42,788 nt of DNA. Source: a virus. The stretch covers positions 1 to 42,788 of IMG/VR virus record IMGVR_UViG_3300044994_000363. One strand, given 5' to 3'. Every line of letters begins with the position of its first letter. Position 1 is the stretch's first letter. A program made the translations under genes and the position numbers. This document shows, piece by piece, positions 2,464-42,788 of the stretch. The notes below the pieces were generated by a model that did not search any database, had not been told where the DNA came from, and saw only the letters and a list, made by a program, of their open reading frames with translations.

Positions 2464-2540
2464 GAAAGCAAATCACAATAAGGCTTTAGCCGCAGTGAAA
2501 AAGCACTTTACGCCAGCTATACGTTGGCGTTCTTTTTTTT
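2464..2540 (+). ncRNA. tracrRNA-like RNA of the phage Cas9 locus
   Basis: The predicted transcript is about 75 nt. It opens with a short anti-repeat (GAAAGCAAATCACAA), then the TAAGGC nexus, as in the ACAATAAGGC of known type II-C tracrRNAs. Three stems follow: GGC-TTTA-GCC, AGTG-AAAAAG-CACT, and ACGCCA/TGGCGT, the last running into TTCTTTTTTTT as an intrinsic terminator. It has its own promoter and converges on the Cas9 operon, its terminal T-run overlapping the stop codon of the dioxygenase gene. The anti-repeat complements TTGTGATTTGCTTTC, which from memory is the beginning of a repeat in Bacteroides type II-C arrays. No partner repeat array is visible in the window. Confidence 0.82.
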
Positions 2541-3252
2541 ACCCCATTCCATTCACGCTGTAGAATACAATAGAGTCTCTGTAATCTCCATCAAAGGCAC
2601 TTACTCCATGCATTATCTCCCTTACGTTTAATATTGCCAGCGAATAGCTCTTACTATCGATGCACATATCTAATTCCGGTAGCACCAGTTTGCCGCCATT
2701 GCCTTTTATCTTATAAAATATCAGATTTAAAACGCCAGGTAACGAAGCTGTATCATAATGCAAACCAAGCAAGCCATTGTAATTGACAGAGCCACTTGTG
2801 TAATGGTTGCTGATGCAAACGCTTTTTTCGCAGAGTAAATTCTGTTGTCTTTTTTGAGCTTCAAAAATTGCAGCCAGTTCGTCACTTTTTTCGCTGGCGA
2901 ATTTTACACCAAGCTCGGCCAATAATGAAATGGCTTTGAGGATGTTTTTGTTTCCCGCTTCTTTGTGAAAGGCAGCTATGGTGCATTTGTGCCTGCCTAA
3001 ACTGCCATCAGTTCTTAGCCCGCCAAAAAATATGGATTCCAATTGCCTGCCGCCATATACATGAGGAATGAAGGATTTTTTATCATTCCTGCATCCTTCA
3101 ATGATGTAGTCAATCAAGTATTGAATGTTAGCATTTGTTTCCGGGAAGAATGCGCCTACGATTTTGCCTTTGTTCCTGATGATGGTTTCAGTAGTTACAT
3201 TTGGCTCATGCCAACCTGGGATATCTCGTTCTTTATAGTCTGTTAATTTCAT
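2539..3252 (-). CDS. 2OG-Fe(II) dioxygenase, TET/JBP-like (putative DNA base hydroxylase)
   Basis: The 237-residue protein has the metal and cofactor signature of 2-oxoglutarate/Fe(II) dioxygenases: His165 and Asp167 in GLHYDTASL, distal His215 in REIMHGV, and Arg225 in DYRDSIVFY for 2OG binding. The order HxD, GGKLVLPE, HGV, R-x-S-x-V-x-Y resembles the TET/JBP group, which oxidises methyl groups of thymine or 5-methylcytosine in DNA, and occurs in phages. The assignment to a DNA substrate is inference; a protein or small-molecule substrate is possible. The gene is last in the Cas9 operon, overlapping the upstream coiled-coil gene by 20 nt. Confidence 0.72.
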   Translation of the reverse strand: MKLTDYKERDIPGWHEPNVTTETIIRNKGKIVGAFFPETNANIQYLIDYIIEGCRNDKKSFIPHVYGGRQLESIFFGGLRTDGSLGRHKCTIAAFHKEAGNKNILKAISLLAELGVKFASEKSDELAAIFEAQKRQQNLLCEKSVCISNHYTSGSVNYNGLLGLHYDTASLPGVLNLIFYKIKGNGGKLVLPELDMCIDSKSYSLAILNVREIMHGVSAFDGDYRDSIVFYSVNGMG

Positions 3253-3481: not shown

Positions 3482-4994
3482 TTTTCATGAATTGGGAAAT
3501 ATCGCTGCTTAAATCAACCTTTCTTTCGTATAGATCATTCACATAGCCTTCTACGCTATTGGCTATATAGATATTGTGCGTGTAGGTTTGTTTTTTTTGG
3601 ACCAGTCGGTCGATCCTGCCGATGCCCTGAAAGCGATGGATAGGGTTTAGTGAATGGCCAAACATTACTACATGGTTTGCATTAGGGAAATCCAGCAATT
3701 CGGAGCCACAGCCATAACTTGCCAGCAACACCCTACATTTCCCCTCTCTGAATAAGTGAATGGCCAGGGCATTGTCATCATCATATTGCTGCCCATGTAA
3801 TTCAATGAATGATATTGATGCCCGGTGCAATGCTTCTCTTGCTATTGCAATGTCAGCATAACGGCCGTTAACTGTAAAACCAAACACAATTACCTGATCA
3901 TCATGAGGTATTAAATGTAGTATTTCAATGAGTTTGTTTTTTTTCAACTCTGCGCCTCCTGCGCGATAGCAGCATTGCACCATTGAGGTGAAAACATCTA
4001 CAATGCTTTGTTTCTCTTTGATGAATTTATTAGCCCGATTGTAAAGTAAATTCATAGCCTGAGACTGCGTGGCGTTCAGCATTAATTTATAATCCTTGCT
4101 AATGCTTTTCCGGTTGTCGTAATCATACCGGTTGCGATGGAAAATATAAGGAGAAACGGATTGCAAAAAATTGAGCATAGATTTTACCCCTCTAATTTTT
4201 TCGCCTTTCACATTCAAATAGTGGTGCGCTTTTTTTCCTTCCTCAATGATTATTCTTTTGTCTATACAGAAGAAAATTCCGAATAAATCAAGTACGCCAT
4301 TGATGCAGCTTGTGGCTGTCAATCCATGCACATACCCGGCTTTATGCAGGCTCACCCTTATGTTATTGGCCAGCTTACAGTCGGGGGTTTCGTTGATGGC
4401 GATGATGCCATTTTTCACCCTATGCGCTTCATCAATAATAACACAATCGTTTTCATTTATCAGCAAATCCTGGTTGTAGCTAAACCAATTAATGCTTACT
4501 ACATTGGTTTCAATAGCAGGATTAAGCCAACGTTTGAATGAAGTGTTTAATTGCTCAATGGCTCTTTCATATTGCGGGGTGATCCAGTAAAGGCGTTTAA
4601 TCTTTCCATGATTAAAAAGGGTGTTTGCAACCTCAATTCCAATCTTTGTTTTGCCGGAACCTGTCCACAACCAAATTAGGCTGCGTTTCAATTTTACTGC
4701 AAATTCCACCGCTTCTTTTTGTATCTGCACCAAATCAGCAGGGTAGTCTTTTTCTTCTATGCCGGTTACCCACTTTATTGATGCAGGTGGCTTTTGTTGC
4801 AATATTTCGGCAAGGGAAATATCAGTGAATAAATGGTTGGTTTCAAACCAATCATCCACAACCACATCATAGCCTACCGATGCAGGTTTCATATCTATGA
4901 TAGCAGCGTTTGGAATCCAAAACTTGCTGCCATTCATAAATAGCTTTGCCTTATGGGTTTGTTTCAGTAGCGATATTTGTCTTGCTATTTTCAA
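3447..4994 (-). CDS. SF2 helicase/translocase, SNF2-like
   Basis: The 515-residue protein has superfamily 2 motifs: Walker A TGSGKT at residues 111-116, DEAH at 188-191, TATS at 226-229, and in the second lobe LASYGCGSELLDFPNANHVV followed by NPIHRFQGIGRIDRLVQKKQ, the QxxGRxxR motif VI of SNF2-type enzymes. It should couple ATP hydrolysis to movement on duplex DNA. There is no nuclease or methylase domain attached. The start overlaps the end of cas9 by 44 nt, indicating translational coupling. Phages often carry SNF2-like proteins in replication regions, but this one is placed with the Cas9 homologue, so remodelling or opening of DNA at the Cas9-bound site is a reasonable hypothesis. Confidence 0.88.
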   Translation of the reverse strand: MKIARQISLLKQTHKAKLFMNGSKFWIPNAAIIDMKPASVGYDVVVDDWFETNHLFTDISLAEILQQKPPASIKWVTGIEEKDYPADLVQIQKEAVEFAVKLKRSLIWLWTGSGKTKIGIEVANTLFNHGKIKRLYWITPQYERAIEQLNTSFKRWLNPAIETNVVSINWFSYNQDLLINENDCVIIDEAHRVKNGIIAINETPDCKLANNIRVSLHKAGYVHGLTATSCINGVLDLFGIFFCIDKRIIIEEGKKAHHYLNVKGEKIRGVKSMLNFLQSVSPYIFHRNRYDYDNRKSISKDYKLMLNATQSQAMNLLYNRANKFIKEKQSIVDVFTSMVQCCYRAGGAELKKNKLIEILHLIPHDDQVIVFGFTVNGRYADIAIAREALHRASISFIELHGQQYDDDNALAIHLFREGKCRVLLASYGCGSELLDFPNANHVVMFGHSLNPIHRFQGIGRIDRLVQKKQTYTHNIYIANSVEGYVNDLYERKVDLSSDISQFMKIDTKTLNNELP

Positions 4995-7725
4995 GGCTTT
5001 GTTTTTTTATGATTTCACCCATTTGATTTACAAAAACTTTTTGCAGCTTCATCCATTCATCCGCCTTTACCTTATGTGTATCGGTTGCCGATAGCGTTGT
5101 TACGGGGCGCAACGATGGGTTATCAGCTACCCCAATCAAATACCAATACTTACCGTTTAGTTCTACCACATCATTTTCTTGTAAGTAAAAGCCCTTGTCT
5201 ATTCGCTCGCCATTGTTGAGTTTGTTGATGTATTCGAGTAGCGTAATGGTTTCTTTTTTCACCTTGCCTTTTTCGTCAATCCAAACTTTGAGGCAAAAGT
5301 TTTTATCGCTGAACACATAATCGGTTTTGGTTTCATAATCCCTGAATCTTCCGGTGATGCCGTTGCCATCGGTAGAATGTAATGCAAATATTTTTTCTGC
5401 GTTTTGGCTTACCGATACTCTTTTGATGGGCTTGCAATTGTGGGTTGCCGGGTTTTCAATCAGCGATAAAATGCCGTCTTCGTGGTTGCCTTTTTCTTTA
5501 ATCCTTGCCTGAATTTTTTCACGAATCGCTTTGTCCATTATTTTCAACACCATAGGCTCTGTCAGCTTGCTTATTGGCTGCCTTATTTTGAAAAATACTT
5601 CTTCGATGATTTCGCCTTTGGCATTTCTTTTTTTGTTTACACGCCTGCCGAATACGCTTTCCTCGTGTAATGCAAAGCGTGGATTGAATCCGAATTTCGT
5701 ATGTCTTGAAAATTTGATGCGTGGCATGAAAACCGGAACGTTGAAGTCAATCATCGGCAACCCGGGTTGGATGTCATAAACCGAAACACTGTCGATATGC
5801 TCGCTATGTACTTTTATGTTATCGAAGTAGTCAACGGTTTCCTGGCTCATATTGGCCATGGTCCATGCCTTGGCTAAGTAGTGGCGTGCATCTTGCTCGT
5901 TCCAGCTTTCTTTCAGCCATTCTCTGGTGTAGCGATTGATGAGCTTGTTGGGGATATTAGTTGCTTTGCCTATCGTGGCGAAGCATTTGGTATTATAGTC
6001 GCTATTTTGCCTTTTTGAAATCCAATTATCCGGAATTTCATTTTCTTCCATGAGCAAGAATTTTTGTTTTTCTTCCGGAAATCGTTCAACCGCTTTTCTA
6101 TATTCATCTTCAATGCCTAACTGCCGTGCAAAATCAATACCGGTAAGCCTGTTTTTTTGCTCATTCAATTGCGTTGGGCAAAGCACCAGGTTGGCTATGC
6201 CTCGTTCAAATATTTTGCTTTTGGGGATTATATGGTCAAGGTTATATTTATCAGTGAACAAATCTTTTTTGTCAATGATAACATCGGGTTCGTAAGGACT
6301 GATGCCGCCACTTTCTTCCCATAGTTTGAGCTTCATTAGGTTATAGGCTGATAAGTGGGAATTCACTTTTTCAAACTTGTCATCTTTTCTTTTTGCTTGT
6401 GCTATTGCCTTACGGCCTTTGTTGCCCTGCTTCAGAAGATGGTCAATTTCAAACTGAATTTCGGTAATGGGATATTTGCTTTTTATTTGCTCTACCAAGG
6501 CTTTGTAGCTGTGGTAGTGTTGCTCTAATACCACGTTGCGCAAGGCCACGTTCTCAAAATCAACTTTGCCGTAAACTTCCAATATGGCTTCTTTCAGTTT
6601 CATACCATGGCGCATCAATGGCATTAACTTGCGGATAGCTTTCATGCTGAAATCACCCCAACCTAATTTGCTGAAATCAAGATCGAGCAATTCGTTGATT
6701 ATGTGGTCGCTGAACTTGTATTTTTGGGCCAATAATTTTGCAAGCTTCTCGTTGGTTGTTGCCGAATAAATGTCCTGCCACAAGTTGTAATCTTTCTGAA
6801 TTTTCAAGTCATTGAAGGCTTTACTCACGGGGTTTCCTGCAATCATTTTGCCACTAAACCAACTGTATTGGGTGGGCTTGCTCAACCCTAAATCTTTTAA
6901 GCAAGCGGCTTTTGTGAGGTTGGCTCCTTCGTTGCATTTATTAAACCATTTTTGGCGAATTTCAAATGGGATTTCAATCTCATTTTTTTCGATGTCATAA
7001 ATGTGAATATTCAGCACATCGCGCAAAATTCTAAATTCCTGATAAACCGGGTTGGAAGCGTGAACAACCTCTCTGTTTTTTTCATAATCACACTTTGAAA
7101 CCTTTCCTTTTTTCAAAGGTCGCTGGTAATAAATGATGTCAAACAGTTTCTTTCTCAGGGTTGGGTCTATGGCTTGCTTATCCATAATGGCATTAAATTC
7201 ATTTTCATAGCTTTTCCTGGTAAAAATGATATTCGTACTGCTTTCCATTGTGAGTAGATAAGCCGCTATTGATGGATATGCTTTCAGGTTTTCTTCGTGG
7301 CGTTCAATCTCTTTGATGTAATCGCTGTTGTCGTTATCACTCACGCCACGTTGGCTGTAATAGCCACGTTTTATTTGCAATTGGCAGAGCACATTGGTGA
7401 GTTCTTGTGGTGTCAATTGCTGGGTTAAGCCTTTCACCCTAAGCTGGAGATTGGCAGTTCTTGATAGATGCTGCGGCTTGCAATTGAAATGCTTTAGAAG
7501 GAGCCTTTTTAAATTGGCTTTTCGGCTTTTATATCGCCAAAGGTTGCGCCTGGCGCCCGCCTTTAATCTTTTATTAATCCTTTTGCTCACCGGCAAGCCG
7601 GCAATAAACTCATAGTAATTATCGAAGCTGATATTTACTCTTTTTATTCCGGTTTTTACAACGGAAATTCCTTCGGTGAGGACGAAAGCAATGGCTCTTA
7701 AGCCGACATAGATGTTGAGATTCAT
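4951..7725 (-). CDS. cas9: Cas9 homologue with degenerate RuvC and intact HNH (predicted nickase)
   Basis: The 924-residue protein has the Cas9 order. RuvC-I is at residues 3-16, bridge helix about 49-79 (KRLKAGARRNLWRYKSRK), a small helical REC lobe, RuvC-II with Glu426 (EIQFEIDHLL), HNH with Asp497, His498 and Asn521 (YNLDHIIPKS, LNEQKN), RuvC-III about 610-625, and a C-terminal region like the WED/PAM-binding part. The catalytic Asp of RuvC-I is Tyr6 (TAT, one base from GAT), and RuvC-III reads RHYLAKAW where HHxxDA is expected, giving Tyr616 and Lys619. HNH keeps all key residues with the usual His-to-Asn spacing of 23. The start at 7725 is chosen because it puts RuvC-I at the N-terminus and lies 11 nt after the preceding stop; the frame is open to 7788. 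The length is short for Bacteroidetes Cas9. Reading frame and domain order are intact, so decay is unlikely. Confidence 0.93.
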   Translation of the reverse strand: MNLNIYVGLRAIAFVLTEGISVVKTGIKRVNISFDNYYEFIAGLPVSKRINKRLKAGARRNLWRYKSRKANLKRLLLKHFNCKPQHLSRTANLQLRVKGLTQQLTPQELTNVLCQLQIKRGYYSQRGVSDNDNSDYIKEIERHEENLKAYPSIAAYLLTMESSTNIIFTRKSYENEFNAIMDKQAIDPTLRKKLFDIIYYQRPLKKGKVSKCDYEKNREVVHASNPVYQEFRILRDVLNIHIYDIEKNEIEIPFEIRQKWFNKCNEGANLTKAACLKDLGLSKPTQYSWFSGKMIAGNPVSKAFNDLKIQKDYNLWQDIYSATTNEKLAKLLAQKYKFSDHIINELLDLDFSKLGWGDFSMKAIRKLMPLMRHGMKLKEAILEVYGKVDFENVALRNVVLEQHYHSYKALVEQIKSKYPITEIQFEIDHLLKQGNKGRKAIAQAKRKDDKFEKVNSHLSAYNLMKLKLWEESGGISPYEPDVIIDKKDLFTDKYNLDHIIPKSKIFERGIANLVLCPTQLNEQKNRLTGIDFARQLGIEDEYRKAVERFPEEKQKFLLMEENEIPDNWISKRQNSDYNTKCFATIGKATNIPNKLINRYTREWLKESWNEQDARHYLAKAWTMANMSQETVDYFDNIKVHSEHIDSVSVYDIQPGLPMIDFNVPVFMPRIKFSRHTKFGFNPRFALHEESVFGRRVNKKRNAKGEIIEEVFFKIRQPISKLTEPMVLKIMDKAIREKIQARIKEKGNHEDGILSLIENPATHNCKPIKRVSVSQNAEKIFALHSTDGNGITGRFRDYETKTDYVFSDKNFCLKVWIDEKGKVKKETITLLEYINKLNNGERIDKGFYLQENDVVELNGKYWYLIGVADNPSLRPVTTLSATDTHKVKADEWMKLQKVFVNQMGEIIKKQSLENSKTNIATETNP

Positions 7726-7736
7726 ATTATCGTGTA

Positions 7737-8201
7737 TTAATTGTTTGACATTTTTTTGAGCCATAATGCTCGATTGGCTTGCATCCATTTTGGCGTTGCG
7801 TTGCCGTAATCAAATACAGCAGGGTGGGGCTTGGTGTAATCAATATCTACATGAATGAACCTGGCATTGAGGCCGATTCGTTTAGCTCCGACACTGATCA
7901 GGGTTTCGATAATTAAGGTTGCGTGAGCTTCATCATTGAAGGCAATATCAGCCGCAAGTCCTTGCAGGTGGGCAGAATTTTTTACACCACCAACGGCATC
8001 GTTCAGGCGTGGGCAACGATATCCGGAAGTAATCCGCACCGGCCCAATTTTATCACGAAGAGGTTGCAGGATTTGAGTGCATAGTTTTGTAAGATTTTGG
8101 ACGATGCGTCGTTCGGGTGTGAACTGTTCATTTAAGGATAATTCAACAGCTTTATTTGAGGCTGTTAGTTCTGCTAATGTGAAATTTTTAGTGAGATTCA
8201 T
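7737..8201 (-). CDS. Peptidase M15-family endolysin (D-Ala-D-Ala type)
   Basis: The 154-residue protein matches the peptidase M15 fold used by many phages to cut peptidoglycan cross-links. Residues 57-85 read ITSGYRCPRLND then SAHLQGLAAD, and FIHVDID follows at 115-121. The zinc ligands are His78, Asp85 and His117. There is no signal peptide, so access to the wall would depend on the holin at 27560. It is the first gene of the operon that continues into cas9, with 11 nt between stop and start. An enzyme of lysis placed beside accessory genes, far from the holin, is unusual; M15 proteins also occur as accessory or host-derived genes. Confidence 0.88.
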   Translation of the reverse strand: MNLTKNFTLAELTASNKAVELSLNEQFTPERRIVQNLTKLCTQILQPLRDKIGPVRITSGYRCPRLNDAVGGVKNSAHLQGLAADIAFNDEAHATLIIETLISVGAKRIGLNARFIHVDIDYTKPHPAVFDYGNATPKWMQANRALWLKKMSNN

Positions 8202-16226: not shown

Positions 16227-16448
16227 TTTCACTAAGATTTCACTATAATCATATGCATACATGATTATCAGGCCATTAAAAAATCTTTTGACTTTCGTCC
16301 AGACCGCAAATCGTAAAAATAGACATTCAATTTTATTGACTGTCTATTTTGTTATTCCTCAAAATCAATCATTTGTGTTTTTTATTGCACAGCGCAGAAA
16401 TGCGCTGTGTTTCACTTTTGTTTCACTGCACTAAAAAATGTTTCACTA
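16227..16448. other. Candidate attP region with arm-type repeats and hairpins
   Basis: The space between repressor and integrase holds at least five direct copies of TTTCAC(T), two near 16227-16245 and three at about 16410-16447. This resembles integrase arm-binding repeats. Between them are an inverted repeat AAAATAGACA/TGTCTATTTT (16316-16325 and 16341-16350) and a perfect hairpin CACAGCGCA-GAAA-TGCGCTGTG (16388-16409). The first inverted repeat may be a core site or a terminator for the repressor gene. No host att sequence is available to fix the crossover. Confidence 0.5.
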
Positions 16449-17609
16449 ATGAACTATAGCTATCGTGTATTAATTAGAAAAGACCAGATTACAAAAGCAG
16501 GCGAGCACGCGGTTATACTTCGCGCTATCATTAATCGCCAAAAATGGGATATTTCCTTAGGTTTTGATATTATGGCCGTCAATTGGGATAATGCCGCGGA
16601 AAAGGTTATTTATAATAAAACCGGTAACATCAACAAAGGCATGGTGGAAACTTACAATCTTAAAATCCAGCAGGTGAAAAGCATTTGTCATTCCATTATA
16701 TGGGATGCTATAATGATGGAAGAAAACATTACAATTCAGGATTTTAAAATCCGGTATAAAAATCCAAAAGACAGAGCATCTTTCTATAATTGGGCAAATG
16801 AGCAAATTCAGCAAATGAAAGGGATCAAAACAAGGTCAACAATTGACCACATCTTGTTGGCATTGAATAGGCTTAAAGAAGTTCACCCGGATTTATTCTT
16901 CAGAGATATTAATGAGGAGTTGGTGGCTCAATACGACAAGTATCTCCGGACGAAATACAAGCTCCACATCAATACAATTCAGCGGCATCATAAAGACATA
17001 AAAATGCTCATCAACCTTGCACGAAGAAAAAACATGTACATCAAGGATGCCTACAAAAACTTCAAAACAAAAAAGGCCGATACACAAAGAATTTTCCTGA
17101 ATGATGAAGAATTGCTTAAGTTGGAGAATGCATATAAGTACAATGTTTTTTGGGGTACCTACTATGAATGTTTGAGGGCATTTCTTTTTTCTTGTTACAC
17201 AGGCTTGCGCTTAAGTGATTTAAAACAAATCACATGGCAGAACATTATGGAAAATTGCTTGATTTTCGTGCCACAGAAAACATCGCACATTGGCAAAATA
17301 ATGAAACTGCCGCTCAGTGATACTGCTCGCAAATATTTAGGAAACGACAAAAGCAAGGTATTCAATATCCCGAGCGACCAGGTTTATAACGAAATATTGA
17401 GAAGCATTGGGAAGGAACTTGGCATTCGCAAAAAAATAACCAGCCATGTAGGGCGCCATACATTTGCGACTATATTTTTGGAGAAGGGCGGAAAAGTTGA
17501 GGTGTTGAAAGAATTACTGGGGCACAGTAAAATTGAAACCACATTAATATATGTTCATCTTACCGATAAACGCATGAGTGAACAAGTTCAGCTTATGAAC
17601 AGGCTTTAA
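16449..17609 (+). CDS. int: Tyrosine recombinase (phage integrase)
   Basis: The start at 16449 (MNYSYRVLIRKDQIT) is chosen over 16407 because it begins at the usual N-terminal arm-binding strand of Bacteroidetes integrases. The protein then has 386 residues: an arm-binding domain, a SAM-like core-binding domain at about 110-200, and a catalytic domain. Catalytic residues are Arg254 (CYTGLRLSDL), Lys277 (PQKTSHIGK), His333 and Arg336 (TSHVGRHTFA), His359 (LLGHSKIETT) and nucleophile Tyr368 (IYVH). It should integrate and, with a directionality factor, excise the phage genome. Its stop codon overlaps that of the convergent downstream gene. Confidence 0.93.
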   Translation: MNYSYRVLIRKDQITKAGEHAVILRAIINRQKWDISLGFDIMAVNWDNAAEKVIYNKTGNINKGMVETYNLKIQQVKSICHSIIWDAIMMEENITIQDFKIRYKNPKDRASFYNWANEQIQQMKGIKTRSTIDHILLALNRLKEVHPDLFFRDINEELVAQYDKYLRTKYKLHINTIQRHHKDIKMLINLARRKNMYIKDAYKNFKTKKADTQRIFLNDEELLKLENAYKYNVFWGTYYECLRAFLFSCYTGLRLSDLKQITWQNIMENCLIFVPQKTSHIGKIMKLPLSDTARKYLGNDKSKVFNIPSDQVYNEILRSIGKELGIRKKITSHVGRHTFATIFLEKGGKVEVLKELLGHSKIETTLIYVHLTDKRMSEQVQLMNRL

Positions 17610-28935: not shown

Positions 28936-30270
28936 TCAAATACGATTATCGGGTGAAACTTGATTTTGAGTAGCCAAGAAATAGTTTCTGAACCACCAGG
29001 TCATTCTCGGATAGCGCTTTTTCCAACCATTAAAAGGATTAACCACAGCATTCAATGGTTCCAGAATGATATCCTGGTCAACTTTGGCATTTAATAAATA
29101 AATTTCGCGAGCCACACGTTTATCACTACCACTTCCAGCCGATTGAGAATTTCTTCCCGGGCCTTGTCCCACCAATGTAGGGTCAAGCCCAAAAGCCCTT
29201 AAAATGTGGGCCGAAGCCTCTTGGCTATCTTCAATATAAAGCCCGTCTTTAATCTTATCATCGATGGGTTCAATAATCCAACCGAAAACAGGTTTCTGAT
29301 TAATGGGATCATAAGTGTAATCACTCATGAAAGCATTCCCCGAATTTTTTTCACCTTTCATAAAATTGACAAATTGTGTCAACTTTTCTTTCTTCTTCTC
29401 AAGCTTCTGTTCCGGTGTTAAAGATAGCCAATCTTTATACAGCGATGGCCAGTAGCTATCAGGTATCTTGATGTGATACTTGATTGTCATCTGATTTTTC
29501 ATCAGCGATTTTTTAAACTCAGGAATTGCCCGGGCAATATCCAGCCAACCGCTCACACGCAATCCATTGTGTGTTGGTGTTTGATAATACACCGAATCAG
29601 GCGAAGGGAAACTGCTGTGATAAATAGCCTTTTGCCACTCCGATTTCTGTAGAGTTCCAGCGGGATCATAATATGGGTCAAGCAAGTTTACCTTAGGCAC
29701 ATTAGCCAATGGCGGCCTTTTCTCCCAATTTGCGCTGATATAGACATACGGAATACTGCCATCTTCCCTTTGTTTAGCCAAACGGCAAAAAGAAGCTTCC
29801 TGCACGGTAATTGTAGCAATTTTCGACTTATCGCCCGAAAGAATTAGCTCCGTAAAAACATTTTCAAACCAGTAAAAATCGCTGGCAGCTTCTCTCGAAA
29901 ACCTTCCCAATGCCGATTTAATGGCAAAATCTTCAATTTCAGCATCATAAAAAGGAATAAGTTTTTCACTTCCATCTTTGTCAAATTCCAGATTACCATA
30001 AATAATCCCACCACTAATCAAAGTCTTAATCTTCCAAGCAATCAGCGCTGGAATTTGATCGTCTTTTGCATAATCTTCCACCACCTCCTGGGGATATAAA
30101 TTATTACTACCCCAATACTCAATCACCTGGCTGCCGGTGCGTTTTTCTTTCACCGTTTTTGTAGGCTTTTGTGGCTTGCCTTTGTTGTCATTCATATACG
30201 CCACAGCGTTGAGCTCCGGTAAAAAAACCACATTGCCGTCAGCACTAAAAATTACATTTTCATTTGCCAT
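28936..30270 (-). CDS. Portal protein
   Basis: The 444-residue protein starts MANENVIFSADGNVVFLPEL and contains SNNLYPQEVVEDYAKDDQIP, a typical portal segment, followed by ALIAWKIKTLISGGIIYGN. The middle part has the stem-like alpha region and the C-terminal part HILRAFGLDPTLVGQG with a Gly/Ser/Asn run, also typical of portals. It would form the dodecameric gate through which DNA enters and leaves the capsid. It is separated from the terminase by the 30.6-34.1 kb accessory region, an unusual gap for these two genes. Confidence 0.85.
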   Translation of the reverse strand: MANENVIFSADGNVVFLPELNAVAYMNDNKGKPQKPTKTVKEKRTGSQVIEYWGSNNLYPQEVVEDYAKDDQIPALIAWKIKTLISGGIIYGNLEFDKDGSEKLIPFYDAEIEDFAIKSALGRFSREAASDFYWFENVFTELILSGDKSKIATITVQEASFCRLAKQREDGSIPYVYISANWEKRPPLANVPKVNLLDPYYDPAGTLQKSEWQKAIYHSSFPSPDSVYYQTPTHNGLRVSGWLDIARAIPEFKKSLMKNQMTIKYHIKIPDSYWPSLYKDWLSLTPEQKLEKKKEKLTQFVNFMKGEKNSGNAFMSDYTYDPINQKPVFGWIIEPIDDKIKDGLYIEDSQEASAHILRAFGLDPTLVGQGPGRNSQSAGSGSDKRVAREIYLLNAKVDQDIILEPLNAVVNPFNGWKKRYPRMTWWFRNYFLATQNQVSPDNRI

Positions 30271-31236: not shown

Positions 31237-31329
31237 GATGCACATCTCCCAATTTTTCGCAAGCGACACGCAGTTCGCTTGCGAAAAATTTTTTTACAAA
31301 AAAAGGGTAAGCGTTTACAAACGCTTACC
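31237..31329. repeat. 93-bp direct repeat with two palindromes, copy A
   Basis: This element contains a perfect 14-bp inverted repeat (TTTTTCGCAAGCGA with its complement, loop CACGCAGT) and then a second hairpin, GGGTAAGCGTTT/AAACGCTTACCC. Copy B at 32019-32110 is nearly identical; differences are a C/T, one A of a run, and two loop bases that keep the hairpin. The two copies flank the 178-residue gene and its promoter in direct orientation. Confidence 0.85.
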
Positions 31330-31330
31330 C
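31305..31330 (-). terminator. Intrinsic terminator of the 178-aa gene
   Basis: GGGTAAGCGTTT and AAACGCTTACCC form a 12-bp stem with a 2-nt gap. On the minus strand it is followed by a run of seven T, so it should end transcription of the gene whose stop is at 31354. It is part of repeat copy A. Confidence 0.85.
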
Positions 31331-31353
31331 TCTTCATTTCAATCACTTTTTAT

Positions 31354-32018: not shown

Positions 32019-32110
32019 GATGCACATCCCCCAATTTTTCGCAAGCGACACGCAGTTCGCTTGCGAAAAATTTTTTTACAAAAAAGGGTAAGCGTTTGTA
32101 AACGCTTACC
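32019..32110. repeat. 92-bp direct repeat with two palindromes, copy B
   Basis: This is the second copy of the element at 31237-31329, lying just upstream of the promoter of the 178-residue gene. Its GGTAAGCGTTT/AAACGCTTACC hairpin (32086-32110), followed on the minus strand by TTTTTT, ends transcription of the DUF932-like gene at 32134. The 14-bp palindrome is unchanged (32035-32048 with 32057-32070). Confidence 0.85.
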
Positions 32111-32133
32111 ATCTTCTGTTCAATCACTATATT

Positions 32134-33086: not shown

Positions 33087-33542
33087 TTAAAACTTAGCAG
33101 CCAGAATTTCAGCGTTAAGCAATTTAATCCTTTCCTCAAACTGCTCACAAAGGAAAGCTTTGCAGCGGCTAATTATTTCGGTGTTAGTCGTGCTAAAGGA
33201 AGAATCACCCTCAATGGTAATTACAGCCTTTTTTCCACTATCACCAAAACCCCAGCTTTGAAGTTCATCCAGTGCACTTTTAAGCCTTTCTAACTGCCTT
33301 GCCTTGTTGCTAATTTCGTCTACTATTTTAATGCGCTCATGCACTTTCATAGCGACCATCACAGAAGAATCTGCAAGAAGTTCATCAACCGCTTTTTGGG
33401 CTTCTGTTTCCATGATAGCATCATCCCCATTTTTGGGCGTTTCAGCTTCCACGATAGGATTTTGTTGATTTAACACCTCATTCGAGGCTGTTTCGATAGC
33501 ATTTTTTTCTGCAGTTGCTATTCTGCTTACTTTTTTGTTCAT
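33087..33542 (-). CDS. Hypothetical helical protein with own promoter (151 aa)
   Basis: The 151-residue protein has a basic start (MNKKVSRIATAEKNAIETAS), an acidic linker, and helices (MKVHERIKIVDEISNKARQL, LKSALDELQSWGFGD) followed by a beta section (AVITIEGDSSFSTTN). It is a monocistronic unit with a TATATTTG -7 box upstream and a terminator just after the stop, so it behaves as a moron. No family was recognised. Confidence 0.65.
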   Translation of the reverse strand: MNKKVSRIATAEKNAIETASNEVLNQQNPIVEAETPKNGDDAIMETEAQKAVDELLADSSVMVAMKVHERIKIVDEISNKARQLERLKSALDELQSWGFGDSGKKAVITIEGDSSFSTTNTEIISRCKAFLCEQFEERIKLLNAEILAAKF

Positions 33543-33598: not shown

Positions 33599-33750
33599 TA
33601 AGCACTTTTTTTAAAAAAAAAATGCATAAATATTTCATTAAGAGATTAGCATTTCTGTTGTACATTTTAAAAAATAACAGAATGTCAATTCGCACCACGC
33701 CCCGCCCTGTCCGTCCTGACAATTGATTTTTTTGCTTTTTTGAGATATGT

Positions 33751-34131
33751 GATAGGGGGGGGGAGCGGCTGCGCCGCCCCTACTGCCACTTAGCAGCCCC
33801 TATAGGGATGCTTAGAGGCAGTTGCATCATTACTTTACATTCCGCTTTATTAATGGATTGCAATTTTAAAATTGCCAACCAGATGATTGAGGAAGATAGA
33901 GACGTTGGCTAATTTATTTGTGTGCTTGTAAAACTATTTAGCAATTGAGTAGCCAGCTTGCGGCTTCAGTTGCTAAATTGTTTATCAAGATGGGATTTGC
34001 GATAGGGAAGAAATGGATTAGCCAATGTCGAAGATGACGAAAGAGTCAAGTTGGCAATTTTAAAATTGCAATTCATGTATGTGCGGTGCGATATGTGTAA
34101 TTATATCTTTGATTAATTACTCTTATCGCAC
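33751..34131. ncRNA. Highly structured intergenic region, candidate structured RNA or cis-acting site
   Basis: The 613-nt gap between the 151-residue gene and the terminase has no plausible gene but much structure. It holds a GC-rich hairpin (GCGGC-TGC-GCCGC, about 33765-33777), a 41-nt near-palindrome (33782-33822), and three nested inverted pairs. The outer pair is a perfect 22-bp repeat (33858-33879 with 34050-34071), itself centred on GCAATTTTAAAATTGC. The middle pair is GACGTTGGCTAAT/ATTAGCCAATGTC (33901-33913 with 34017-34029), and the inner one is ATTTAGCAA/TTGCTAAAT (33936-33978). A further two-part hairpin lies at 34086-34131. It could be a structured RNA, an origin, a packaging site, or a MITE-like insertion. 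Strand is undecided. Confidence 0.6.
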
Positions 34132-34155
34132 AAGTGCCTGCGGGCTGGATTAATA

Positions 34156-35799
34156 TTATATTGTAATTGTATCTAGATTTCCAATGCCATTATTTTGTAT
34201 ACGTGCTTTCATTCGTAGCTCTCCATATACTAATGTATCAAATGCATCGGTAACGTGGGTAGTTTCTTCTTGGTCAATAGCCTTATCCGTTTCTGCGGAT
34301 TTGTTTTTTTGAAAACCATTTTTCACTTGCTTAACGTCGGTATTTTCTAACGCTATAATTAAGCTTTCGCAGTTGCTTGCATTAATGGATATTTCGGGCA
34401 GTGCATTGTTGTTGTGAGCAAATAAGCCATTAATAAAATGATAACGGCTTTCGTGTGTTGCCGTTTGCCCTATATATAATTCGATAACATTCCATCCATT
34501 GGATTTTAATACTGAAATAACAACGTCTTTGAACACAACATTGCTAACTGCATTCTTTCCTTGAAGCGCAGTATGATCATAAATATATACCACAGTGTTG
34601 CTTGGGAATCCTCTGTAATAATTGCAAAATTCTTGCACAACATTCTCTAAAAGCAAAGGCCATTTAACATATAAATGATTAAGGATTTGCATTTTCTTTT
34701 GGAGCTGGCCTACTACAATATTGCAAATTGAAGAATTGTAATCGAGCCCAATTGACAGTGGCATATTGTAATTTAAGTCGCTATCTTTTTTCCATGGATC
34801 AGCGGCTTTCATTTCTTTGAGATTGAAGTTAAAACTATCGATATAGTCATAATCAATATATTCCGCTGTGTGTATGTCTCTGTTGAAAGAGCCATAAAAC
34901 CCACCTTCAATTTTTGGGCTTCTCATGTTAAGGATGCTGGTATAAAAAAGGTAATCGCTAAGTATCCGCTTTTGTTCTTTCACAAATCGAGGACCTAATG
35001 CACGTAAACACTCATCAACATCGGGCTCAGAATAATAAACTGAATCTCTGCGTAATTCCAATAGCTCATAATGGATCGGTTCCATTTTTGAAATGAGTGC
35101 TTTTTTGCGGGCAGCTGAATTTGTTGTGTAATATTTTTCTTCAAGTTTATTGAGTCTAGTTTGTAGATTAACAATTAAGGTAAGCTTTTCTAGGCTTAGG
35201 GATTCATTTTTCAATTCATGAATCCATTTTTGCTTAGGCCCTGTTGGTTGATCGGTTACGAACATTTGGTTATATAGCAAGGGATGGTCCCCTACATACT
35301 TTTCATAGCCTCTTAATGTTTGAGCAGCTTCGTTGTCAATTTGCTCTTTGTTGATGAGCTTGGCTTCATCTACAATCATCCAGCCGACAGACAATCCATT
35401 GCTTGTTCCTTTTCTATCCTGGCTCACCAGGTGAAAGCCGCATCCGGTTTTTGTACTCACAAAGTAATCCCATTTTCTAGGGTATATATAAGGCTTATCC
35501 CAATGATCGGGCGGTTTTTTGCCGATTACATAGTCTTTATCTTCAATCCATCCTAATCGCTGAAATCCTTCCAATACAGTAGGTAATGTTTTGGTGAGCA
35601 GGCTTATGTATGTTGGCGACTGAAATGTGCCGGGTACTCTTGGGAATAATTCAAAGTTCATGATTGCCCTAAATGCTAATAGTCCAGTAGACTTTCCCAT
35701 TCCTCGTGGCCATACATGATATTCGCGCTTAGCCATTACCATTTGACTAAGGGCTTGGAATTTATTAAAGGTAACAATATTTTCGTCTTTTAGATTCAT
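34156..35799 (-). CDS. terL: Terminase large subunit
   Basis: The 547-residue protein has the packaging ATPase and nuclease. Walker A is PRGMGKST at residues 31-38; Walker B is MIVDEA around 141-146. The RNase H-like nuclease has Asp353 (IGLDYNSS), Asp408 (YIYDHTALQG) and Asp518 (HVTDAFD). It cuts concatemers and drives DNA into the procapsid through the portal. The start overlaps the upstream gene by 4 nt. The long non-coding structured region directly follows its stop codon. Confidence 0.93.
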   Translation of the reverse strand: MNLKDENIVTFNKFQALSQMVMAKREYHVWPRGMGKSTGLLAFRAIMNFELFPRVPGTFQSPTYISLLTKTLPTVLEGFQRLGWIEDKDYVIGKKPPDHWDKPYIYPRKWDYFVSTKTGCGFHLVSQDRKGTSNGLSVGWMIVDEAKLINKEQIDNEAAQTLRGYEKYVGDHPLLYNQMFVTDQPTGPKQKWIHELKNESLSLEKLTLIVNLQTRLNKLEEKYYTTNSAARKKALISKMEPIHYELLELRRDSVYYSEPDVDECLRALGPRFVKEQKRILSDYLFYTSILNMRSPKIEGGFYGSFNRDIHTAEYIDYDYIDSFNFNLKEMKAADPWKKDSDLNYNMPLSIGLDYNSSICNIVVGQLQKKMQILNHLYVKWPLLLENVVQEFCNYYRGFPSNTVVYIYDHTALQGKNAVSNVVFKDVVISVLKSNGWNVIELYIGQTATHESRYHFINGLFAHNNNALPEISINASNCESLIIALENTDVKQVKNGFQKNKSAETDKAIDQEETTHVTDAFDTLVYGELRMKARIQNNGIGNLDTITI

Positions 35800-36368
35800 T
35801 CTTCACTTTCAATGATGATGTTATGTTTCTTTTTCGGATTCATGACTTCTTTTTTAAGCTTTTCAAGCTCATCATCGTTTAGGTCTTGAATTCCTAAAGA
35901 ATGGGGTTTGTATTGAAGAATATTAATTATGGTACTTGGTTTGGCATCTTCAAGGTCTCCAGGCATTTGTTTCATTAGCTCTACCATGCTTCGGATGATA
36001 TGAGCAAGTGATTTAAAATCTTTGGCTATAATGGCTCTATTCCTGGCATCGGCAAGCCAATCCATCACAACCGGAACCCAATAGTATTTTTTATATTTTG
36101 CAGTACTGCCAAAAGCTGTTTGGGTTTCTGCAAAAATGATATTGGCAGTTGTACGGCTTACGTCCAGCATTTTTTGCAGCATGGGAATTACTTTGGATTT
36201 GCTGCCATATTGTCTAATTAAGTCGTCGCATTTCATCATGGCATCGTAGTGACGTTTCAAATCCGGAGATAATTCCACGGAGCCTGAATCATCCTGCATG
36301 TATTGAATAATCTGGTCGACCCGTTTTGTGTCTTTATAATCTTTGTATTTTTCTAGTAGCCCCTGCAT
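35796..36368 (-). CDS. Terminase-associated protein (190 aa), possible small subunit partner
   Basis: The protein of 190 residues is helical and basic, coupled to terL by a 4-nt overlap and to the upstream 97-residue gene by 1 nt. It contains LSPDLKRHYDAMMKCDDLIR and a region SRTTANIIFAETQTAFG that may form a helix-turn-helix. The position suggests a part of the terminase DNA-recognition complex. Either this protein or the 97-residue one may be the small subunit. Confidence 0.65.
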   Translation of the reverse strand: MQGLLEKYKDYKDTKRVDQIIQYMQDDSGSVELSPDLKRHYDAMMKCDDLIRQYGSKSKVIPMLQKMLDVSRTTANIIFAETQTAFGSTAKYKKYYWVPVVMDWLADARNRAIIAKDFKSLAHIIRSMVELMKQMPGDLEDAKPSTIINILQYKPHSLGIQDLNDDELEKLKKEVMNPKKKHNIIIESEE

Positions 36369-36661
36369 TATAGTTCTTTGTATTCAAGGTTGTTAAATGT
36401 TTTGATTGCCATTTTTTGAGCTTCAGGACTATCGCGTTCAGCGCAGTCAAGAATGGCGTTATATATTTTGGTTTTGCGCTTGATGATTTCCGACTTTTGA
36501 ATATTTCTTAAAGGATGATTATGTGTTTCCAGAGCTTCCTTAAGTTCATCAGGCGCAATATCCAAAGCGAAGGCCATTTCTTCTGTGGTCACTTCAAGAG
36601 CCGAGCACATCAGCCTAAATGTTTCTAATTCTTCTTCGCTAAGCGCTAAAAGGTTTTTCAT
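36368..36661 (-). CDS. Putative small terminase-like HTH protein (97 aa)
   Basis: The 97-residue protein starts MKNLLALSEEELETFRLMCS and has a helix-turn-helix-like stretch, EVTTEEMAFALDIAPDELKE, followed by helices with IIKRKTKIYNAILDCAERDS. This plan is common in small terminase subunits and their relatives, which bind the packaging start site. It overlaps the upstream PLD-like gene by 23 nt. The assignment is by architecture and position. Confidence 0.6.
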   Translation of the reverse strand: MKNLLALSEEELETFRLMCSALEVTTEEMAFALDIAPDELKEALETHNHPLRNIQKSEIIKRKTKIYNAILDCAERDSPEAQKMAIKTFNNLEYKEL

Positions 36662-37226
36662 TGTAAATTAGTTTATGAATCCATTTGCGATCATGTTCTG
36701 CCGCTTCGCGTACACAAGCAATTACATACTTTTCAATCCTTTTTTTATTGGTTGCATTGGCAGTACTGGTCACGCTGATTCCCCAATTTTCATTTTCAAT
36801 GACCAACACCTTAGCATGAATTCCTGTGAGGTGTATTTTTCCCAGATTATTTCCCGCAATTTGCAAAGCTGCAGGGCAATATCTTCTTACCCGCTCATCA
36901 AATATGCAATGAATGCGTCGTATCAGCCCCTGTTGTATCAATTGTATAATTTTTCTTACAGGCTCTTCGCTGATTGCCCATGATGTTATACAAACATCGG
37001 CAGGTCCGGTGAAGTGCAGCAAATGCGCCAGAACATCATGCAAGCTCCAATTTACAAAGCAAGGAACATGGTAAGTAAATCCATCCTTTATTTGAGGTAA
37101 AGTGGTTTGGATGCTTTTTCCGGTTGCACCCAAATAAAACCCGTGAGCGCCTTCCACTCCGAGAGCTTCAGGACTCACAGGTTTGTTGCTATCAACAACT
37201 CGTTTTAAATCACTCGGATTTAGCAT
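36639..37226 (-). CDS. Phospholipase D-like (HKD) domain protein
   Basis: The 195-residue protein carries one PLD-type half-site. HAKVLVIENENWGISVTSTA followed by NATNKKRIEKY matches H-x-K-x(4)-...-G-S/T-x-N of the HKD superfamily. The earlier parts (LLHFTGPADVCITSWAISEE) resemble the beta-alpha core of PLD nucleases. Only one HKD motif is present, so activity would need a dimer, as in Nuc-type endonucleases. It lies in the packaging operon, suggesting DNA processing during packaging or host DNA breakdown. The end overlaps the next gene by 23 nt. Confidence 0.72.
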   Translation of the reverse strand: MLNPSDLKRVVDSNKPVSPEALGVEGAHGFYLGATGKSIQTTLPQIKDGFTYHVPCFVNWSLHDVLAHLLHFTGPADVCITSWAISEEPVRKIIQLIQQGLIRRIHCIFDERVRRYCPAALQIAGNNLGKIHLTGIHAKVLVIENENWGISVTSTANATNKKRIEKYVIACVREAAEHDRKWIHKLIYNEKPFSA

Positions 37227-42445: not shown

Positions 42446-42788
42446 CTATGGCGCATCGCAAAAAGGCACAGGCAAATTATTGCTCATTGTAAACCGAACT
42501 TCATGCCCGTTCCAATCGCCGCCACTGCCGCGTTTTTCCACTTCAAGCTTACAAGGCTTTTCAGGAGTTCCCATCAAATGCCAATACTCGTTGTTATCTA
42601 CAAAGAGAACAACAAACCTTCGGCCCCTCAGGCTTTCAAAAAATCCAAGCATATCAGGCCGATCCTTAGGAATCAAAAATTTCAGTTCGCTGTCGTATTG
42701 CTCATCGCCATCTACCGCTTTTTGTTCCTCAGTGAATTCACCTGTGCCTAGGGTAAATTTCACCGTATGCTGTAAGTTAATGTCTTTG
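42446..42788 (-). CDS. Phage structural protein, 3' part (continues from left end)
   Basis: This is the C-terminal part of the 155-residue protein that starts at 252 near the left end and crosses the circular join. It contains HTVKFTLGTGEFTEEQKAVD, then ELKFLIPKDRPDMLGFFESL, and ends VPFCDAP. The protein may be a tail or head completion component by its place before the S49 protease gene. No family was recognised. The apparent start at 42763 is an effect of the window end. Confidence 0.75.
   Translation of the reverse strand, partial: KDINLQHTVKFTLGTGEFTEEQKAVDGDEQYDSELKFLIPKDRPDMLGFFESLRGRRFVVLFVDNNEYWHLMGTPEKPCKLEVEKRGSGGDWNGHEVRFTMSNNLPVPFCDAP
42662..42788. repeat. Terminal direct repeat (circular overlap), right copy
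   Basis: These 127 bases are identical to 1-127. One copy should be removed to obtain the circular 42,661-bp sequence, and the gene at 252 to 42446 then becomes continuous. Confidence 0.95.

Follow-up and report, generated by a model that had tools for sequence, protein, structure and literature searches.

The best-studied cos site of the 3'-end type is that of HK97, which gives a 10-nt 3' overhang and has a small-terminase block 15-29 bp downstream of the cut (PMC11331095, PMC9410871). The ends of Polaribacter phage Leef_1 (Helgolandviridae) were classed as Cos 3' by PhageTerm from sequencing reads (PMC8776804). Phages also contain large structured non-coding regions, among them those of the ornate large RNAs GOLLD and ROOL (PMC12286853).

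Here, we describe a region beside the terminase gene of IMG/VR virus record IMGVR_UViG_3300044994_000363, which was analysed as one stretch of 42,788 nt (the window). The record is a circular assembly whose first 127 nt are the same as its last 127 nt (1-127 and 42662-42788), with a genome of ~42.66 kb, and the phage is probably temperate, as suggested by a predicted integrase at 16407-17609. The region is two things: a cos site at its low-coordinate end, and separate, lineage-specific hairpins. Minus-strand positions 33753-33695 are very probably the cos site of a temperate Bacteroidota phage, the ends and the cut in the window phage itself being predicted. A cos site is an ordinary type of element, and this one is common to a large group of related phages.

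The site resembles that of HK97 in its specific cut, its 3' overhang, and a terminase block at a fixed distance from the cut, all of which are predicted here from the sequence. It differs in the position of the conserved block, which precedes the cut by ~37 nt instead of following it, and in that the gene for the terminase large subunit (terL) is at the right genome end, before cos. Lastly, HK97 depends on an HNH protein, but none was identified beside the cos site and terminase of the window, where a gene for a PLD-like nuclease is found instead. Leef_1, a cultured relative (terL, 27%), has the same two-block site in the corresponding position behind terL (25.4 bits), but its terL-cos gap is only ~25 nt and has no nested hairpins, its block 1 is TTCATATTAT, and its overhang is GCCACGGCGTTG(T).

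Gene neighbourhood and relatives

The terL gene (34156-35799, minus strand) was assigned from phrog_2 (1.9e-6) and a tblastn match to an annotated terminase (6e-97), and its product has 36% identity over 97% to the terminase of Microcystis phage Mea-Yong924-1. Because terL is on the minus strand, the region at 33680-34155 lies downstream of it, and the order along that strand is the terL stop, the region, and then a 151-aa gene beyond cos (33087-33542). The portal gene (28936-30270, minus strand; phrog_11226, weak PF04860) is also downstream of cos. Candidate genes for the terminase small subunit (TerS) are at 36368-36661 and 35796-36368. The PLD-like nuclease gene is beside the terminase genes (36639-37226, minus strand; phrog_16945 endonuclease, 4.1e-16), with an HxK...STAN motif recognised by eye. 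Homologues are found at the corresponding position in Microcystis phage L004, where the product is annotated as a polyphosphate kinase, and in laban6-1 (gp033, PF13091). As a guess from gene position and family, this nuclease might be a packaging accessory, or correspond to the HNH packaging protein found in other 3'-cos phages.

The earlier note on this DNA had described a structured non-coding region beside the terminase, and this was confirmed. No likely gene was found between 33542 and 34156 (no open reading frame of at least 60 aa in the list), and 33680-34155 folds well beyond its shuffles, with z -8.69 on the plus and -10.08 on the minus strand and none of 100 dinucleotide shuffles as good. 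The region forms a GC-rich island in a genome of 39% GC. The nested part alone folds equally well with DNA folding parameters (z -10.0).

A single-sequence search of IMG/VR for relatives returned nothing. Relatives were obtained with aligned terminases, a five-sequence alignment yielding 359 and an eight-sequence alignment 416. The nearest relative, L009 (terL, 47%; portal, 55%), has the same order of terL, gap, small gene, and portal as the window, and conserves the 151-aa gene (35% identity, E 6e-23). Its gap is 1.1 kb long, and the match to the window is confined to ~98 nt at its far end (69% identity), with E only 0.03 when taken alone. The matching part covers the GC-rich hairpin, CACATATC, and GACAGRGCGGGGC, and is therefore not the nested hairpin.

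A conserved two-block site

Dozens of related phages share a motif that consists of TTCATATATC, a stretch of 36-38 nt that often contains GCAATTGC and has GATAG or GACAG as its last bases, and then TGCGTGGCGGGGTC or a similar sequence. In the window, block 1 is ATCACATATC (33744-33753, minus strand, as are the parts that follow; family consensus as above), located with a two-block matrix from which the window had been left out. It is followed by a spacer of nearly fixed length (33712-33743; 37 nt including GACAG), which contains TCAATTG at a place where many relatives have the spacer word given above. The left half of block 2, GACAG (33707-33711), is the predicted right genome end after trimming, and the equivalent base ends seven contigs of relatives. 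The cut is predicted at 33707/33706, and alignment to contig G419 and Leef_1 suggests a 12-nt cohesive overhang, GGCGGGGCGTGG (33695-33706).

The matrix represented TTCATATATC, 36-38 nt, and GATAG | TGCGTGGCGGGG, and was trained on 19 relatives, with the window and L009 left out and both strands scanned. Its best match in the window scored 34.3 bits (minus strand, 33753), compared with 10.8 for the next unrelated place and 23.2 for the best of 100 Markov genomes. Across 150 terL loci, 46 of the 49 matches of at least 18 bits were on the coding strand and at most 1 kb after terL; these counts include the training loci, and the left-out tests are therefore stricter. Among loci anchored on the portal (portal alignment A4), the site was present in 53 of 79, always on the coding strand and before the portal, some contigs belonging to both the terL-anchored and the portal-anchored sets. 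At a threshold of at least 22 bits, there were 38 (terL) and 40 (portal) matches in the real loci, versus 0 and 0 in reversed loci.

The consensus of 57 distinct site sequences is TTCATATATC ... GATAG TGCGTGGCGGGGT, with gaps of 36 nt in 26 sites, 37 nt in 13, and 38 nt in 11. The core is unstructured (mean z -0.56 over 50 phages) and is conserved as a sequence at fixed spacing. More distant terL relatives have a weaker motif or none, and no description of it was found in the open-access literature searched. A first core pattern, CACATATC..GACAGRGYGGGG, was discarded as too narrow; its matches in genome contigs, tRNA genes included, were due to chance.

Contig ends and the predicted cohesive overhang

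Contig ends downstream of terL pile up close to the gene, with 25 of 77 falling within 500 nt of the terL stop (6-kb range); 7 of these 25 are at 0 nt and perhaps reflect truncated or trimmed records. Seven independent contigs from different samples (L131, L143, G418, L015, L072, L088, and L165) end 36-39 nt after block 1, six of them at '..AG' and L088 at the equivalent TATTG. Ends at '..AG' can be understood because 3' overhangs are lost in end repair, and because contig limits are where assemblers put termini (PhageTerm paper, PMC5557969). The contigs ending at the site include L131 (43,947 nt), L143 (39,598 nt), and G418 (35,405 nt). The last of these is full-length, with terL at one end and the portal near the other; its right end is the site and its left end is just beyond the site. 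Contig G419 (41,913 nt) has the 12 nt AATCCTGGCGGG at both ends, right after ..ACAG and with a few stray bases beyond, and this shared sequence looks like a 12-nt cohesive end. The Leef_1 record ends 13 nt after the ..GTAG of its own site.

Not every end fits this account. The overhang sequence and a few stray bases are kept in two contigs (the left end of L131 and both ends of G419), a pattern not expected from trimmed 3' overhangs alone, and L151, L042, and L060 end near terL but off the site. Strong structure may be a further cause of assembly breaks. The window being circularly closed, its cos would be expected to be ligated and internal. A packaging-end signal, whose lack the earlier note had held to count against its reading, was tested for in the relatives and was found.

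Inverted repeats between terL and cos

All of the repeats previously noted in the region are present in the sequence: outer, middle, and inner arms, a near-palindrome, a GC-rich hairpin, and a further hairpin. The outer arms (33853-33879/34050-34076) are 27 nt long and 96% identical; the exact outer pair reported earlier is real, but its exact core is 23 nt (33857-33879/34050-34072) rather than 22. The middle arms (33901-33919/34011-34029; 19 nt, 84%) and inner arms (33925-33948/33966-33989; 24 nt, 83%) lie within it, and together the nested repeats make up a long imperfect hairpin of 224 nt (33853-34076), to which no strand is assigned and which was found only in the window phage. On the minus strand, there are also the 41-nt near-palindrome (33784-33824), the GC-rich hairpin AGGGGCGGCGCAGCCGCTCCCC before block 1 (33760-33781), which is partly common to L009, and the hairpin beside the terL stop (34086-34131), one arm of which holds CACATATC, a word also present in block 1.

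The minus-strand sequence CCCTATCGCAAATCCCA (33991-34007) is an imperfect second copy (14/17) of CCCTATCACATATCTCA at 33741-33757. The words at block 1 and 33991-34007, written together as CCCTATC(A/G)CA(T/A)ATC(T/C)CA, are alike, there being 2 matches at up to 3 mismatches where 0.09 are expected; a looser form of the block-1 word pattern was not significant. The block-1-like words at 33991-34007 and in the hairpin at 34086-34131 might link the hairpins to packaging, but as word similarities they are suggestive only.

No homologue of the nested hairpin was found in phages, plasmids, IMG/VR, L009, or 395 Bacteroidota genomes. Direct DNA similarity of the region to phages and plasmids gave chance pieces only, an exact scan of IMG/VR for the 19-mer GGCAATTTTAAAATTGCAA gave no match, and the sole exact 22-nt match sits within an open reading frame. 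Because no homologue was found anywhere searched, the nested hairpin is private to the window lineage. A same-species contig, IMGVR_UViG_3300044941_000449, starts at the portal gene and does not have the region in the part covered. The nested hairpins and their neighbours are separate from cos, lineage-specific, and not random. Most relatives have ~5-140 nt between terL and block 1, as against 402 nt in the window and 891 nt in L009. The gap of the window stands out as the most structured by a wide margin (z -10.4), with those of other relatives ranging from -5.3 to +0.35. Unrelated strong hairpins, some of them terminator-like, occur in the terL-cos gap of several relatives.

A structured region after terL was rejected as a family trait, given that z after terL spans -8.4 to +2.7. 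A hairpin directly before block 1 was likewise rejected as part of the site, being present in only some phages (mean z -0.68, 14% below -2). Long spacers are not all structured, since the 763-nt spacer of L129 looks coding, with a RadC-like motif seen by eye. The spacers after terL in L014, L021, L033, L072, L123, and L009 seem, by eye, to have a common repeat-like element, GGGCGTTCCC..GGTCGGGCTTTCC..CTACACGGTAG..CAATCCCTAACGC, which may be a repetitive element of Bacteroidota.

Only one other exact inverted repeat of more than 16 nt within 600 nt occurs in the window. This second long repeat, at 877-1112, has 29-nt arms (97%), lies in a 445-nt gap, and contains iterated palindromic words such as CTTACAnAATTnTGTAAG; it looks like a putative operator or iteron-type origin. 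A replication origin had been among the earlier suggestions for the region beside terL, and nothing in 33680-34155 points to one; the iterated palindromes at 877-1112 would be the better candidate.

Alternative explanations

The site could be read as pac, the start of headful packaging, rather than cos, as such a start might also leave a conserved terminase site with one-sided contig ends. This is extremely improbable, considering that Leef_1 is classed as Cos 3', that G419 carries the same 12 nt at both ends, and that G418 is full-length and ends at or just beyond the site. It is also highly unlikely that a long structured non-coding RNA, either ROOL/GOLLD-like or a packaging RNA, is made from the minus strand of the entire 450-nt region. 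The very low folding energy of the region (z -10), its GC-richness in a 39% GC genome, and its position among late genes agree with an RNA, and large structured non-coding regions in phages are the point of likeness to GOLLD and ROOL. However, the window has no covariance-model match (no Rfam 15 family at the gathering threshold and, when relaxed, chance matches only, for example to plant miRNAs), and its structured part is not conserved, the nested part lacking a homologue even in L009, whose gene order is the same. Furthermore, the conserved core is unstructured and kept as a sequence at fixed spacing, and both strands fold about equally, like a DNA inverted repeat. The earlier proposal of a long structured RNA thus gained no support. 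A guide RNA or tracrRNA for the phage Cas9-like protein was also set aside, as there are no CRISPR-like repeats in the genome, the gene is far away, and positive evidence is lacking.

The remaining alternatives concern the hairpins and are compatible with cos. That they are the terminator region of the terL operon is a tentative possibility: T-run, terminator-like hairpins are found in the same gap of several relatives (L058, L031, and L116), and a promoter-like word, TATATTTG, precedes the next gene. Yet the window hairpins have no T-run after them on the minus strand, a terminator scan finds none on that strand (both matches being on the plus strand), and the conserved two-block core and the contig ends are left over. 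The nested repeat at 33853-34076 was also considered as a MITE or decayed insertion element between terL and cos, which is consistent with its 27-nt inverted arms around 170 nt without an open reading frame and with its absence from relatives; because of this absence, the repeat was probably gained. A mobile origin is nevertheless unlikely. No target-site duplication was recognised (a TA-type duplication of the hairpin was not exact and was rejected), the inner nested arms are atypical of MITEs, and no copy occurs elsewhere in the window phage or in phages, plasmids, IMG/VR (exact 19-mer), or the 395 Bacteroidota genomes, so the MITE-like character proposed earlier finds no support, in the window phage or in the databases searched. 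It is very doubtful that the nested hairpins are a DNA or RNA element that loads the terminase onto cos through extra block-1 words (33991-34007 and 34090-34097), as a hairpin-type enhancer would. Our best guess is that they would act on the terL transcript by shaping its 3' end, or would serve to insulate the late operon.

Other features of the window

A 945-aa Cas9-like protein is encoded at 4951-7788 (minus strand; TIGR01865, 191 bits against a cut-off of 100, and HNH_4). By eye, its RuvC-I aspartate is missing (NIYVGLRAIAFVL) and its HNH domain is seemingly intact. No CRISPR-like repeats were found in this circular temperate phage genome. Near-identical blocks of ~85 nt at 31250-31332 and 32033-32115 (GATGCACATC..CGCAAGCGACACGCAGTTCGCTTGCG..TTTTTT..GTAAGCGTTT), beside two genes, are duplicated terminator-like hairpins. 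A queuine tRNA-ribosyltransferase-like protein (2539-3252, minus strand; phrog_6059) might perhaps serve in phage DNA base modification.

Proposed function and significance

The suggestion of a packaging signal in the region stands for its GC-rich end, 33753-33695, in view of the conserved site and the ends of relatives, and not for the nested repeats. On the cos reading, the terminase would recognise two DNA blocks, set at an almost constant distance from each other, that lie immediately downstream of the terminase gene, the assignment of terminase subunits to the blocks being one that we infer. It would cut the concatemer there to give complementary single-stranded ends of ~12 nt, most likely 3' overhangs, so that each head would receive one unit-length genome, which would recircularise after injection.

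These results define, from assemblies alone, which sequence marks the packaging cut site in a large group of Bacteroidota phages, most of them uncultured. With the motif, genomes can be rearranged to start and stop at their true ends, and a search for satellites that borrow the site becomes feasible. More broadly, contig-end pile-ups in public viral collections can expose cos sites without reads.
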